Positions 26,475-32,265 of a stretch of 33,646 bases of DNA are shown in pieces. The notes beneath the pieces were generated by a model that saw only the letters and a program-made list of their open reading frames with translations, searched no databases and was not told where the DNA came from. This DNA is from Candidatus Yanofskyibacteriota bacterium (GTDB lineage: Bacteria > Patescibacteriota > Minisyncoccia > 2-02-FULL-40-12 > GWA2-44-9). The stretch's first letter is position 1; each line of letters starts with the position of its first letter. The translations under genes were made by a program, and so were the position numbers. The DNA is taken from contig JADZAY010000016.1 of the NCBI GenBank assembly GCA_020852375.1, positions 1-33,646 on the forward strand, in the 5' to 3' direction.

Positions 26475-26575
26475 CGTTCGGGGAAGCTCGTTCTGGTGTG
26501 AGGGTTCATGCGGCCACAACCTAGCACAAAACACACTCCCCCTCAACGCAACGCCCGCCATGGAAGGCGGGCGTT

Positions 26576-27005
26576 GGTCGATGCGTGCGATAAGCCGAGT
26601 TCTGTGCCTGCGCACCTCAGGAGCGCAGGCGGCGGTCATTTATCTGCGACGTATGTTGCCATACACCTGTAGCGTACGAACTTTTCGAACGGCGGGTTGC
26701 CCCGACGAACGCTGTACTTGCACCCGGGTAAGGATTTGGCCGTTTCACTCGCAGTCTTTGACCCGCGACTGCGACTGGACTCGGTCCGTGATAGAATCAT
26801 GGACTTTGGGTTCGTCCTCCGCTCCTTTTCAAGAGCGAACGTCTCTGCTCGCACCTCTTGGCTTGCGCCATGCGGGTGTTACCCGCTACCCTTTTACAGA
26901 CCCCCCTGCTTCGCGGGGGAACCCCCGTATAAGCCGGAGTCAGGAGTGCTCGGACTTTCCTCACCGCGCCTTTACAGGCGGGCGCGACAGCCTGCACGCA
27001 CCGAC
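26576..27005 (-). ncRNA. rnpB: RNase P RNA, bacterial type
   Basis: Minus strand TGAGGAAAGTCCGAGC near the 5' end and ACAGAACTCGGCTTAT near the 3' end; P1 pairing GTCGGTGCGTGC/GCACGCATCGAC. Confidence 0.95.
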
Positions 27006-27011
27006 GAGCCC

Positions 27012-27040
27012 ATTATACCATATTTGGACGGTGTTTGGAA
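27012..27040 (-). promoter_or_regulatory. rnpB promoter
   Basis: Minus strand TTCCAA - 17 nt - TATAAT, directly upstream of the rnpB 5' end. Confidence 0.75.
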
Positions 27041-27046
27041 GACCCC

Positions 27047-27403
27047 TTACGCTGCGGCCTCGACGTCGTCCTGCGGGGGTTCCTGGTCCTCGTCCTTCAG
27101 AAGCGCTTCCTCGGCCGCATCATTCTCATCCATCTCGCGGTCGATCTGTGCAAGATCCTCCAGGTCAGATGCAATAATATCTCTCGCCTGCTTCGCCGCG
27201 GCAACCTCCACGCCATGAAGACGCGCGTCGAGATCATCGGATTCGAGCTCCTGCCGAGCCGTATCGATCTTTGGCTGAAGACCGTCCATCGCGGATCCGT
27301 ACAGCATGAGGTCCTCGCCCAATTGATCCGCGGCCTGCGCAACACGCCGTGCGAGATCGTCGCCGTCGCTGTTCGTTGTTGTGGTAGTTCGTTTCGTCTT
27401 CAT
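27047..27403 (-). CDS. Hypothetical acidic helical protein
   Basis: 118 aa, charged, predicted helical; 11 nt after the 27415-29247 CDS. Confidence 0.7.
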   Translation of the reverse strand: MKTKRTTTTTNSDGDDLARRVAQAADQLGEDLMLYGSAMDGLQPKIDTARQELESDDLDARLHGVEVAAAKQARDIIASDLEDLAQIDREMDENDAAEEALLKDEDQEPPQDDVEAAA

Positions 27404-27414
27404 ACGCAGCTACA

Positions 27415-29247
27415 TTAGGGTGCTTTCGTGAGCCGCTTCGGCATTCGGAGCCCTTCGAACTCAGGGAACTTGGTGTCGTTGAGGAATGCTGCCTTCCGGG
27501 ACTCCCCCGCATGAACGATCTGACTCGCTTCGGCAAATAGCTTCTGACACCCATCCAGGACCATCTCAGCTCGTTGGATGCGTTCATCCAGCTCCTTCAT
27601 GTGCCCCTGGAGCTGCTTGATCGCTCGCTTAGCTGCAGCGGATAGTGTGATGCGCTGAGTTTTCTCTTCCGATTCGGTCTTCGCAATAAGCGCGAGAGCC
27701 TCCCGACGCTTTTCCAAGAGCGTCTCCAGAATGCGCGACTGTACATCCATCCGCTCTTTGAGGCCTTCCATCCTGCCTCGATACGGAGCAATCTCTCGAT
27801 CGTATCGACGCGCAACTTCCTTCATAAACTCGCCGTGCCACCCGACATGCTTCTCCCGGATCGCATTCCACTTCTCGATTCGCCCCTCCAGCTCTGCGGC
27901 ATGCTTCTCCCAAGCAGCGATCCGGTTGCCATACCATAGACGCTTCAGCGGTCCTGAGCTTTGCATTTTCTTCCGATACTCCCCGATACGATCCTCTGCA
28001 TCTTCAAGCGCACCCCCGGCCCTGCCCTGGAAATACGCGCTGATCGCGGCGAACACCCGCGCACCGCGACGGTGAAGAGCAACATCGCCGCTATCGCTTT
28101 GGAACCAGAACTCCTTGAATCGATCGAAAAACCCTTCGGGCGGCCGCTCACGCGGCTCTCTCCGCTCCGGCGACGGAGCGGGCTTCGGCTCTACCGGGGC
28201 TTCGGGGAACTCCTCGTGGAAATCTTCTCGCGGCGCAACTTCAGTGGGCGTTTTTGGTGCAGCCGCTTTTTCCTCCTGTTTCTGCTCTTGCCTCTGCCGC
28301 TCTTCTTCCGCGAGCCGCTGCTGATATGCGTCTCGGAGTCCTTTTTTCTGTTCGGGTGTGATGGAGAAGACTCCCTCCTCGCCTGGCGACTTCAGGTTGA
28401 AATCAAATGTGGGAGCCGGAACGATATCCGAGGCAGCCTTCTCAGATTCCTTCGGTGCCGCGCCGCGCTCCGGCTGCTTCTCGGGTGGCGCCTCCTGCAC
28501 AGCTTGCTTCTCTCCTGCCCCGTTTTCTTCGGTCGCTGTTGTCTCCGGGGTTTGCTGAGCCGCACGCTCCGCCAGAGCCTCCCGAATACGCTTGGCCTCG
28601 GGAGAACTTGGTGCAAGCATAACCCGCTCACTGCCGACTTCCTGCGCTTTCTTCCGCTCAGGCGCCGGCTGCTTCTTTGCTTTCGGTTTCTCTGCCTGCG
28701 CGACCTCCACCTTTTGATACTTCGCGCGCTCCGCAAGCCACGATTCGTACTTTTTCACACTGTCATCGAAGGAGGTCGCCTCCCGTTCTTTTCGAGCGGC
28801 TTCGTCCCCTTTCCCAAGCGCCCGCAAGCGGGTTGCTTCGGCGCGAAGCGAAGCCTGGCGCTCCTTCACCCGATTCATCTCGATCTCGGCCTGGGTCAAT
28901 GGCGCGCGCGCCTCTTGTCGGCGAGGCTCTGCGACGGGGGCATTTCCGATCTCCTGCATGAGGCCGTCAATCCTCGCAAGAAACTCTTTTCGTTTTTCGG
29001 TAAGCGCCGTGCGCTGCTCGGGCGTCGCAGAAGATGGAAGCTCTCGACTGAGCACATGTCGTCGCGCAGCATGTGCCCGCTCGACGACCGTCGGTGCCTG
29101 CTCAGTGGGCCGAGGCGCCTCAGCGCTCGGCACTTCTGGCACAACGGCTGCCAGCGTCGCCATGGGAAGGTCAGCGCGACCCACAGACGCCCGCATCATG
29201 CGGTACGGCGGCACCGGCACGGTGAGTTTTTCAAGCACGCGCTTCAT
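27415..29247 (-). CDS. Hypothetical large coiled-coil protein
   Basis: 610 aa; Pro/Glu/Lys/Ala-rich linker and long heptad-like charged helices. Confidence 0.8.
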   Translation of the reverse strand: MKRVLEKLTVPVPPYRMMRASVGRADLPMATLAAVVPEVPSAEAPRPTEQAPTVVERAHAARRHVLSRELPSSATPEQRTALTEKRKEFLARIDGLMQEIGNAPVAEPRRQEARAPLTQAEIEMNRVKERQASLRAEATRLRALGKGDEAARKEREATSFDDSVKKYESWLAERAKYQKVEVAQAEKPKAKKQPAPERKKAQEVGSERVMLAPSSPEAKRIREALAERAAQQTPETTATEENGAGEKQAVQEAPPEKQPERGAAPKESEKAASDIVPAPTFDFNLKSPGEEGVFSITPEQKKGLRDAYQQRLAEEERQRQEQKQEEKAAAPKTPTEVAPREDFHEEFPEAPVEPKPAPSPERREPRERPPEGFFDRFKEFWFQSDSGDVALHRRGARVFAAISAYFQGRAGGALEDAEDRIGEYRKKMQSSGPLKRLWYGNRIAAWEKHAAELEGRIEKWNAIREKHVGWHGEFMKEVARRYDREIAPYRGRMEGLKERMDVQSRILETLLEKRREALALIAKTESEEKTQRITLSAAAKRAIKQLQGHMKELDERIQRAEMVLDGCQKLFAEASQIVHAGESRKAAFLNDTKFPEFEGLRMPKRLTKAP

Positions 29248-29948
29248 GTTCCGTATACAAGTCCTTTCTTGAGATCCGCGAGAAGCTCGGCGGCTTTTCG
29301 TTCGCGATCATCATCTCCCCCCTCCTCTCGAGGCGCAGTGGCTCCGGCGGTGGAGCTCATGATGTTCTCAACCTCTTTATCGAACTCTCGTTTTAATCGC
29401 TCCAACTCCTCAGCGATCTGCTGGAGCCGCTCCGCCGATGGCGAAGCCGCAGATTCCTGCTGCTCGCCAGATACCGGCGCCGCCTCGGCTGGTTGCTCCG
29501 GAACAGGAGCTGCTGAAATGGAGAGTCCTTCCAATAACCCGTTGTAGTGCACATACTCATCCCTCATGTAATCATCAAATGCCTTCAAGTCTTCGAGGGC
29601 CTTCCGAGCAACCTCAGCCGCGGCGGCTGCCTCCGAGCTCTCTTCGCCGTGACCCTCGATCGCCTGACTGAGCGCTTCATTTGCGGCGGAAAGTGCTTCG
29701 TCGTATCTCACCCGCTCATCCGCGATCATCTCCTTTGCCTGCGCAACGAGACGCTCCATCTCGGCGCGGTCCGCCGTATCAGCCGCCCGATCGATCAATG
29801 GCTCCAGGTCGTCCAATCGAGCCTGAAGCGAGCGCTCTTCGGATACATTCTCCTGCGGCAATCCGGCGCTTTGTCGTAATTCCGCAACAATATCAGAGCC
29901 CACCTGCTGGGCCTGGGCAAGAATCGCGCGCACGGGAGACATGCTCAT
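29244..29948 (-). CDS. Hypothetical coiled-coil protein
   Basis: 234 aa, charged helical; ATGA overlap with the 610-aa gene; TATACT 10 nt before ATG. Confidence 0.75.
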   Translation of the reverse strand: MSMSPVRAILAQAQQVGSDIVAELRQSAGLPQENVSEERSLQARLDDLEPLIDRAADTADRAEMERLVAQAKEMIADERVRYDEALSAANEALSQAIEGHGEESSEAAAAAEVARKALEDLKAFDDYMRDEYVHYNGLLEGLSISAAPVPEQPAEAAPVSGEQQESAASPSAERLQQIAEELERLKREFDKEVENIMSSTAGATAPREEGGDDDRERKAAELLADLKKGLVYGT

Positions 29949-30005
29949 ATACAGATGAAGTATACCCTGCCCAGCTTTTCCTGGGCGTATGCTCTGTGGA
30001 TAGCA

Positions 30006-30890
30006 TCAGCGCTTCCGAGTCGCCTCACCTGCAAGAAGTGGAGCGTGTTCTGTTGCCCGCTCGATCGCCGAGGCGATCCGCACACGCAACGGGTGTTGGA
30101 AGAGCTCTCGGTACCGAGCATCTTCCGCACGACGGACCAAAGAGGAAAGCGTGGCGATCCGAGCCCGAAGCGCGCGGCGCTGCTCCAGTGAAAGATCATG
30201 CTGCACCGCCGCGTACTGGGCCCGAACGGTGCGCTGAAGCGCATGCGCCTGTGAAAGCGTCGGAGCTGACGGCCGACGCTCCGAAACGGGATAACGGTCG
30301 TGAAGCCGCTGGAGCAGGTTGATCAGTCGGTCCCGCTCCGGCGACGGTCGGCCATCCATTCTCCGCGCATCCAGCTCCTGCAGCTGCTCATAAAAACGGT
30401 TCAGCTGGTCATGAAAATCTTCTTTCGTATCTCGATCAAATGCACCGCGCCGCTCCAGCAACTCTGCGTATGTCTCAAGGTTTGCAGCGCCTTCGAACAA
30501 GGATTCCACCTCCCCTTCGTATACGGCGAATGCCCGATCCCGCTCGAGATCACGACCTTCGTGCATACGCTGTGCAAGCCAGTCGCGAATGCGGGCGACT
30601 TCCACCGGCTCCAAGCCCGATGCGTGCTCAAGCCGTTCCCGCTCTGTCTCGTAGACATGCCGAAGATTCCGCTCCGCCTCTCGCACCTCTTCCGTGGAGC
30701 CCCCGCCGGATCGGTATCGTTCGCGAGCGGCCTCAACGGCGCTCATCGCGTCCCAGATCCTGTCCTCGACGCCCTCTTGGTATGCCGCAACGCCGCGCTC
30801 GTGAGCGCGCTGCTCATGCTCCTCGGGAGGAGTTGTGTGCACATGAAGCGGCCATTCGGCAGAGGTTCCCATATCCTCATCATACCGCAT
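30006..30890 (-). CDS. Hypothetical coiled-coil protein
   Basis: 294 aa, Arg/Glu-rich helical; start could alternatively be 30872. Confidence 0.75.
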   Translation of the reverse strand: MRYDEDMGTSAEWPLHVHTTPPEEHEQRAHERGVAAYQEGVEDRIWDAMSAVEAARERYRSGGGSTEEVREAERNLRHVYETERERLEHASGLEPVEVARIRDWLAQRMHEGRDLERDRAFAVYEGEVESLFEGAANLETYAELLERRGAFDRDTKEDFHDQLNRFYEQLQELDARRMDGRPSPERDRLINLLQRLHDRYPVSERRPSAPTLSQAHALQRTVRAQYAAVQHDLSLEQRRALRARIATLSSLVRRAEDARYRELFQHPLRVRIASAIERATEHAPLLAGEATRKR

Positions 30891-30931: not shown

Positions 30932-31372
30932 CTAGATGCCTAGTCCATCTCCCGGACCATCGAGCGCGGCATTCACCATGCGGTCTGCATCCTTGTTGTA
31001 TTCGCGACGAACGTGCTCGAACGTCACTGATTTGAAATCAAGGCGCGCATTCCACACATCGAGAAAGATGCTCCGGAGGCTTGCATCGCGGACTTTGTAT
31101 TCACCGTTGAGCTGTTTCACCAAAAGCTCGCTGTCCGCTTTCACGTGGACGATCGCCGCGCCTGCATGTTCGGCTCCGATCACGGCTTTCAGCTTGCGAA
31201 GCGCCAAGAGCACCGCGGTATATTCGGCGACATTGTTCGTCGCTATCCCCAACCGCTCACCCTGTTCGATCCGCTCGATCCCGGGTCCATCGATCACAAA
31301 CCCGGACGCGGCGGGGCCGGGATTTCCCCGCGAACCACCGTCGGTATGGATTGTGTACACAGGTACGTTCAT
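30932..31372 (-). CDS. Ribonuclease H-like (RNase HI family)
   Basis: YTIHTDGGSRGNPGPAASGFVI, NVAEYTAVLLAL, VKADSELLVKQLNGEYKV, VRREYNKDADRMVNAAL. Confidence 0.92.
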   Translation of the reverse strand: MNVPVYTIHTDGGSRGNPGPAASGFVIDGPGIERIEQGERLGIATNNVAEYTAVLLALRKLKAVIGAEHAGAAIVHVKADSELLVKQLNGEYKVRDASLRSIFLDVWNARLDFKSVTFEHVRREYNKDADRMVNAALDGPGDGLGI

Positions 31373-32265
31373 GCTGTTTGCTCTGATGACGCCTCTACGG
31401 GGCGAAACGGCAGATCTTCGAGGCGATCCACCCTGAATCCAGCCGCATGCACATGCCCCCCACCGTTATATTTCAGAGCAATGCGCGAAACGTCGACGCC
31501 CTCCGGAGTGGAGCGAAGCGAAACATATGGTGTGTCTCCGCGCATCCGCCACACCACACCGAACGGCCGCCCAGTCGCAAGTGCGTTGGCAACCTCGGAA
31601 TGGAATAGCTCCGTGGTCACCGCGAGCACCCGGTGCCCCTCGAACTCGATCTCGTATGCACTATTCGTTACCAATCGCTCGACGCACTTCGCCCGGTACT
31701 CCCCCACAAGCGCGCCGTACCGCATCGCGCGACGACGCCCCGCCGCACTCTCCAGTGTCCGCGCGAGTTTTGTGTACACTTTGAAATCGAAGTCATAGAG
31801 ATCAAGCCAGTCGCTGATCACCCAGGAATCCAAAGCATCCTTCCGATAGAGATCGATGTCTTCGACAACCCGGAGTATGTATGGCACCGGAACGCCGGGG
31901 TGAAAATACTCCCACGCGATGACCGCACCCGAATGCTCGCTTGAATACCGGAAGTCGTGCGCCATTTCCGTTTCCGCACGACAGGACACATGGTGATCAA
32001 GCGCGATCACACGGTCATTCTTGCGTATAAGCCGCTCCATCACGTCACGGGTGTAGGTAAAATCGACGAGGTAAACGGTTTTTCCTGTCAGTCCCTCCGG
32101 AGCCGGAACCTGGTGCTCCACTGCAATGTATTCTGCGGACTTTCCAAGTTTTCGAAACGCGGCCCACGCGGCACCGAATCCATCGGTACAGCCCTTGTGA
32201 TAGAGAACGACGATCTTTTTCGATATCTTCCGCGTTCCGCCCCGATGTTCAATGAATTTCGTCAT
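31369..32265 (-). CDS. DHH superfamily phosphoesterase with DHHA1 domain
   Basis: YHKGCTDGFGAAWAAF, VIALDHHVS, YNGGGHVHAAGFRV. Confidence 0.88.
   Translation of the reverse strand: MTKFIEHRGGTRKISKKIVVLYHKGCTDGFGAAWAAFRKLGKSAEYIAVEHQVPAPEGLTGKTVYLVDFTYTRDVMERLIRKNDRVIALDHHVSCRAETEMAHDFRYSSEHSGAVIAWEYFHPGVPVPYILRVVEDIDLYRKDALDSWVISDWLDLYDFDFKVYTKLARTLESAAGRRRAMRYGALVGEYRAKCVERLVTNSAYEIEFEGHRVLAVTTELFHSEVANALATGRPFGVVWRMRGDTPYVSLRSTPEGVDVSRIALKYNGGGHVHAAGFRVDRLEDLPFRPVEASSEQTA

Follow-up and report, generated by a model that had tools for sequence, protein, structure and literature searches.

The DNA analysed here, referred to as the window, is the whole 33,646-nucleotide (nt) contig JADZAY010000016.1 (contig C16) of a Candidatus Yanofskyibacteriota bacterium (assembly GCA_020852375.1), whose 744 kb genome (G000) is 100% complete with 1.26% contamination. 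We describe a cassette of four genes, A, B, C and D, that is inserted between the conserved housekeeping genes rnhA and rnpB and is restricted to one genus. An earlier note on this DNA reported four minus-strand open reading frames (ORFs) of 294, 234, 610 and 118 amino acids (aa), with an ATGA overlap between B and C, and all of these are present. Upstream of the cassette lie pgk, a DHH phosphoesterase gene and rnhA; downstream lie rnpB, a GIY-YIG gene and a sugar transferase gene. The features are as follows, with isoelectric points given as pI.

30006..30872, minus strand: gene A, 288 aa (294 aa if translation starts at 30890, ORF 30006-30890)
29244..29948, minus strand: gene B, 234 aa, acidic (pI 4.38), amphipathic helical
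27415..29247, minus strand: gene C, 610 aa, pI 9.28
27047..27403, minus strand: gene D, 118 aa, acidic (pI 4.05), helical
29201..29220, minus strand: N-terminal motif VPVPPYR of C, present in every C copy of the genus
28138..29067, minus strand: linker of C (residues 61-370), rich in Pro, Ala, Glu and Lys, 11% Pro
27418..28137, minus strand: tail of C (residues 371-610), basic (pI 9.6), amphipathic helical, soluble
30879..30884, minus strand: -10-like element TATGAT before A, 6 nt upstream of the start at 30872
29959..29964, minus strand: -10-like element TATACT before B, 10 nt upstream of B
26575..27003, minus strand: rnpB (RNase P RNA, class A; RF00010, 92.2 bits, E 1.1e-27), downstream boundary of the cassette
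30932..31372, minus strand: rnhA (RNase H; PF13456, E 1.3e-12; PF00075, E 2.1e-9), upstream boundary of the cassette
31369-32265, minus strand: gene resembling DHH/DHHA1 phosphoesterases, located between pgk and rnhA, slightly below both Pfam cut-offs

The source organism is probably ultra-small and host-dependent. Its family, within the Patescibacteria, contains Candidatus Yanofskybacteria, which are placed in the class Paceibacteria and are reported to parasitise Methanothrix, with both attachment and harm described (PMC9600506). The genus was sampled in three genomes, G000, G002 and G001, the last being a sister lineage, and is one of 294 genera compared.

Four constrained helical proteins and their putative promoters

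A, B, C and D are all coding and under purifying selection, because in the comparison of G000 with G002 third codon positions carry most of the changes and the proportion of nonsynonymous differences (pN) is well below that of synonymous differences (pS) in all four genes. Nonsynonymous divergence (dN) between these genomes was 0.30 for A, 0.45 for B, 0.60 for the C tail and 0.48 for D, against 0.11-0.18 for the neighbouring rnhA, DHH, pgk and sugar transferase genes; pS is near saturation, which leaves dN/dS only rough. The cassette proteins evolve faster than their neighbours, yet they are constrained. B and C share four bases (29244-29247), and 11 nt separate C from D. Although the 294-aa ORF of A exists as described, a start at 30872 is more likely, because the G002 homologue starts at the matching position and TATGAT lies 6 nt upstream, and this gives a protein of 288 aa.

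The proteins had been characterized as highly charged and mostly helical, and our measurements agree. Asp, Glu, Lys and Arg make up 32-37% of each, with pI values of 6.05 (A), 4.38 (B), 9.28 (C) and 4.05 (D). Helical periodicity was scored as a hydrophobic signal at 3.5-3.6 residues relative to block shuffles, and z was 4.4 for A, 5.4 for B, 6.0 for the C tail and 2.7 for D, compared with 0.2-1.7 for the housekeeping controls (rnhA, pgk and the sugar transferase). An AlphaFold2 model of A has nine helices, with a mean predicted local distance difference test score (pLDDT) of 76.5 and a predicted template modelling score (pTM) of 0.40. The conserved motif Y..(V/I)QH.L...(Q/E)R...R..(I/L)A.L(S/A)S.V..AE is found at the C-terminus of A. 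C looks modular, consisting of a VPxPPYR motif, a disordered-looking linker that corresponds to the Pro/Glu/Lys/Ala linker noted previously, and a tail. The long C-terminal helical part attributed to C does occur in the window; as a fixed property of the protein it does not hold, the tail and D of G001 being different.

No convincing or near cut-off match to A-D was found in Pfam, NCBIfam, PHROGs or PADLOC, and PDB and phage searches likewise produced nothing convincing, so the description of the proteins as lacking a recognised domain stands. Clear homology to a known system, which the earlier note had named as a refuting outcome, did not emerge from the profile, PDB and phage searches. By sequence, C had no match in the PDB and the A profile had two at chance level, and Foldseek with the A model gave a best E of 0.26 at a TM score of about 0.2 (14-3-3, coiled coils), which is no fold match. 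A was absent from the viral contigs searched and the C tail from the phages searched, and a direct scan of the contig database with C returned nothing. In PHROGs there were weak matches for B alone and none for A, C or D. The weak library matches of B (adhesion factor FAF, FAM184, LeoA and endolysin) were set aside as far under the cut-offs and typical of helical composition.

The four genes had been taken for a single operon, and two promoters are the likelier arrangement. In the compared genomes, A and B each have a -10-like hexamer no more than about 12 nt before the gene, and in the genus TATACT or a near form is found 6-10 nt upstream of the two genes: TATACT occupies the matching place upstream of A in G001 (two contigs) and G002, and GTATACTT is conserved at the -10 of B in G000, G001 and G002. 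Because such a hexamer precedes both genes, A and B-C-D are probably two separate transcripts, which would be leaderless or nearly so. A sigma-70 two-hexamer scan yielded no promoters, and the signal consists of the -10 element alone. Over 108 genes of the genus, -10-like hexamers (TAYRMT) are clustered 5-14 nt before start codons, with 12 cases in two 5-nt bins and at most 3 in every other bin. This clustering suggests that leaderless or near-leaderless transcripts are widespread in the genus.

As for the flanks, the rnpB of the window is genuine. It scores 92.2 bits against an Rfam gathering score of 100, and default annotation would miss it because it falls below that cut-off; the G001 copy passes at 117.3. 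TATAAT at 27012-27017 may be its own -10 element. The DHH/DHHA1 phosphoesterase-like gene is present in 10 of the 22 relatives tested.

A cassette restricted to one genus

The order A-B-C-D between rnhA and rnpB is kept in G000, G002 and G001, while the sequences have diverged. In G002, A, B, C and D are followed by the sugar transferase gene, and C is divided between two contigs at an AAAEK repeat. This repeat, in the C linker, coincides exactly with the two contig ends (L006 1-100 and L005 1-120) and probably broke the G002 assembly. On contig C21 of G001 (L014), genes for proteins of 434 (A), 216 (B), 953 (C) and 115 aa (D) are followed by rnpB. A second G001 contig, C24 (L013), carries a tpi-pgk-rnhA-A-X-C arrangement that is cut by the contig end. 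This locus may come from another organism in the G001 bin (3% contamination), and it is treated as weaker evidence because single-copy housekeeping genes are duplicated there and a foreign origin is possible.

A is conserved between the lineages, at 19-25 bits against a shuffle maximum of 7.6, and its homologues are found in G001 (two contigs) and G002 only. B has a homologue of 52% identity in G002; between the window lineage and G001 no similarity of B is detectable, and at the position of B, G001 encodes an acidic protein of comparable size. C of the window lineage resembles that of G001 just over the first 25 residues, which include VPxPPYR (hhalign P 1.2e-4). A search for this motif as a DNA pattern gave 7 matches in the three genomes, including 5 at the N-termini of cassette C or X proteins, compared with 1 for a reversed control; the other two matches are not N-termini of plausible genes. 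The C tail is 39% identical between G000 and G002 and is not common to G001. D is acidic throughout the genus (pI 4.05-4.28), and a profile of the G001-type D matches G001 and neither G000 nor G002. At the rnhA-rnpB site, then, sister lineages differ in the C tail and in D at once. Since A and the N-terminus of C are still recognisable, exchange would be a simpler reading of this difference than divergence beyond recognition.

Beyond the genus the cassette disappears. In single-protein searches of 58 relatives, homologues of A-D were confined to G001 and G002. A profile search of 384 genomes of the class, from 294 genera, recovered A in 3 genomes of 1 genus. A profile of the window-type C tail matched G000 and G002; a further C tail match in G209 (17.5 bits over 88 positions) is weak and is not believed. 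The rnhA neighbourhood was read in 40 relatives, among which tpi, pgk, rnhA, the sugar transferase and a glycosyltransferase are widely collinear. In the 31 with rnhA and the sugar transferase both in view, the gap between them is empty or holds unrelated genes, and A-D occur in none. The synteny beside rnpB and rnhA that had been proposed as a check is thus conserved in order, and solely within the genus. The cargo of this gap varies by genus (L060, L067, L069, L077, L079, L088 and L093) and includes acyl-CoA dehydrogenase-like, aminotransferase-like, laminin-G-like, transposase-like and PaaX-like proteins, as named by reading the sequences. The gap looks like a permissive insertion site, because its cargo is very different between genera.

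C-D pairs in other genera

Proteins matching the C-terminal 280 residues of G001 C occur in six other genera, where a homologue of G001 D is encoded immediately after them. A profile of the G001-type D was found in 18 of the 384 genomes, and C lies directly upstream in 16 of them, representing 13 genera including this one; outside the genus, 15 genomes from 12 genera have this arrangement, at several places in the genome. Because the pair recurs, C then D, at several sites, C and D are regarded as partners in their own right. This gene partnership is new and is traceable over 13 genera in the sample. The G001-type pair comprises a C tail of ~280 aa and a D of ~100 aa. A structure model of the tail is weak overall (pLDDT 67.5, pTM 0.36), with the last 80 residues confident. 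A PDB profile search of the tail gave designed filaments and chance matches only. A LysM-like extracytoplasmic end was dropped, as none was found in Pfam or by Foldseek, and a transmembrane segment was considered on hydropathy that proved only marginal.

Most pairs have divergent membrane glycosyltransferase-like genes on one side and, on the other, a group formed by E140, a VirD4/TraG-like ATPase (PF10412, E 2.4e-6), gtrA and dnaX. The remaining pairs adjoin lepA/smpB-like, ftsH-like or L19-like genes (named by reading sequences), and ATPase proximity is also missing in some true pairs (G038, G010 and G201). The locus itself is conserved in Paceibacteria (L102-L107, L138-L157) as a divergent glycosyltransferase-like pair, an optional C-D, E140, the VirD4-like ATPase, gtrA and dnaX. 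E140, a helical protein of 130-150 aa without a Pfam match, is found with the ATPase almost everywhere. In G000 the ATPase is encoded at G000:C5:4634-7003, and the window pair is not beside E140 or the ATPase.

A possible scaffold assembly, its rivals and known systems

The reading that we tentatively favor, as a real possibility short of probable, is an envelope or host-contact assembly in which C serves as the scaffold, pairing through its tail with the cognate acidic D, and A and B take part as partners. C would act as a scaffold or tether. Its N-terminal VPxPPYR peptide would dock onto a shared partner, its linker would bridge distance, and its tail would join D, the small acidic product of the gene immediately downstream, in a helical assembly; A and B would be additional helical adaptors in the same assembly. 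The site would be the cytoplasmic face of the envelope, as part of machinery for surface functions or host contact that turns over rapidly from one species to the next. This reading draws on the conserved order A-B-C-D, the VPxPPYR motif common to all lineages, the recurrence of C-D pairs in other genera, mostly near the ATPase, the fast yet constrained evolution and the helical periodicity. C-D pairing is supported in the window lineage by a basic tail (pI 9.6) next to an acidic D (pI 4.05). The sole functional hint, the neighborhood of C-D pairs near the VirD4-like ATPase, leans towards the envelope or secretion and reaches the window by position only. The attachment to Methanothrix reported for Yanofskybacteria would give fast-changing contact machinery a plausible reason.

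Several observations weigh against the scaffold assembly. Judged from their sequences, all four proteins are without a recognised domain. Window C has no transmembrane segment by hydropathy (best 19-residue value 0.89), and because of this the envelope location would come only via the G001-type relatives, where the hydrophobic stretch of the tail reaches 0.86-1.47, marginal and below the usual 1.6. Those relatives are not demonstrably related to the window pair: for D, the comparison of G001 with the window lineage gave an hhalign P of 0.34, about 1 bit with hmmsearch and pairwise scores within those of shuffles, and for the C tail an hhalign P of 0.06, the G002 tail scoring no better against G001 C than shuffles. 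In other genera C is acidic too, and the acidic-basic pairing fails there. The ATPase occurs in 56 of the 58 relatives, with or without C-D, and its locus in G000, G001 and G002 contains no C-D.

Much of the same evidence bears on a polymorphic secreted effector, in which the C N-terminus would be an export signal, the exchangeable tail would be delivered to the host via a type IV secretion system (T4SS), and D would be a chaperone or immunity protein. A constant N-terminus with a differing tail and a partner gene downstream, a D that is acidic across the genus (pI 4.05-4.28), fast evolution and the frequent proximity of G001-type pairs to the VirD4-like coupling ATPase all fit, as do a family that includes the Methanothrix-parasitising Yanofskybacteria (PMC9600506) and the presence of a T4SS in Patescibacteria (PMC12102498). 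We nevertheless consider an effector unlikely. Pfam, NCBIfam and PHROGs gave no known toxin domain in the C-terminal part of C and no T4SS family match for A-D; there is no effector domain or signal peptide, and A and B are left unexplained. The G001-type tail is helical and conserved over many genera, unlike a diversifying toxin. The genus has only two known tail types, and a single exchange does not make a polymorphic series. A published warning adds that the VirD4-like coupling ATPase of Patescibacteria may be recruited for other functions (PMC12102498). Quite improbable, in our estimate, is the broader proposal that the cassette belongs, together with the C-D pairs of other genera, to a modular patescibacterial system not described before, with a constant docking C N-terminus and a lineage-exchanged tail and cognate D, linked to a VirD4-like secretion ATPase, for meeting different hosts.

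The four genes could instead be ordinary lineage-specific orphans, fast-diverging helical proteins under weak constraint that form no joint machine, their order inherited and their likeness compositional. The absence of homologues outside the genus, the lack of detectable similarity of B and D between the two lineages and low-complexity stretches such as the AAAEK repeats agree with this, and we regard it as possible but doubtful; purifying selection acts on all four genes, order and promoter positions are kept despite divergence, and both A (19-25 bits vs 7.6) and the C motif are conserved across lineages. The long amphipathic helices and the basic C tail might also suit one of the roles raised in the earlier note, a cytoskeletal or chromosome-organising system, built of filament-forming or SMC-like coiled coils. 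This is very unlikely, given that Pfam and PDB searches matched no SMC, MukB, bactofilin or other filament protein, that the fold comparison, made for A only, gave nothing better than the Foldseek result above (best E 0.26, TM about 0.2), and that the cassette has no ATPase and is absent elsewhere in the family. An origin as part or remnant of a phage or mobile element that entered between rnhA and rnpB would agree with the varied junction cargo of relatives, some of which resembles mobile-element genes. It appears highly improbable: no integrase, repeats or phage matches were noted at the cassette (plasmids were not searched), its G+C of 0.60 equals that of the window (0.596), and its promoters look native.

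Many patescibacterial genes are without assigned function, and this locus, with boundaries fixed by conserved housekeeping genes, offers a concrete example to study with regard to how these cells may attach to and exploit hosts, the window's own version having a very narrow range. If C and D do form an envelope or secretion assembly, they would add a component not known before to the host-contact machinery; otherwise, the locus is a clean case of how rapidly orphan genes can turn over at one fixed site.

Three known arrangements resemble the cassette in part. Polymorphic toxin-immunity and effector-chaperone loci, as generally known, likewise combine a constant N-terminus, an exchangeable C-terminal part and a small gene directly downstream; the window differs in having no toxin domain or secretion signal, two tail types in its genus and the additional genes A and B. 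The patescibacterial VirD4 or type IV coupling protein locus adjoins many G001-type C-D pairs, although the ATPase is near-universal in relatives and stands apart from the cassette in this genus. The third is the C-D pair of Paceibacteria. No homology to it can be detected in the C tail and D of the window, C of the window lacks a hydrophobic segment and the window pair is not near the ATPase. In both, however, a large helical C is directly followed by a small helical D (amphipathic and 11 nt apart in the window), and G001 holds the pair inside an A-B-C-D cassette with the same C N-terminal motif and the same flanks.

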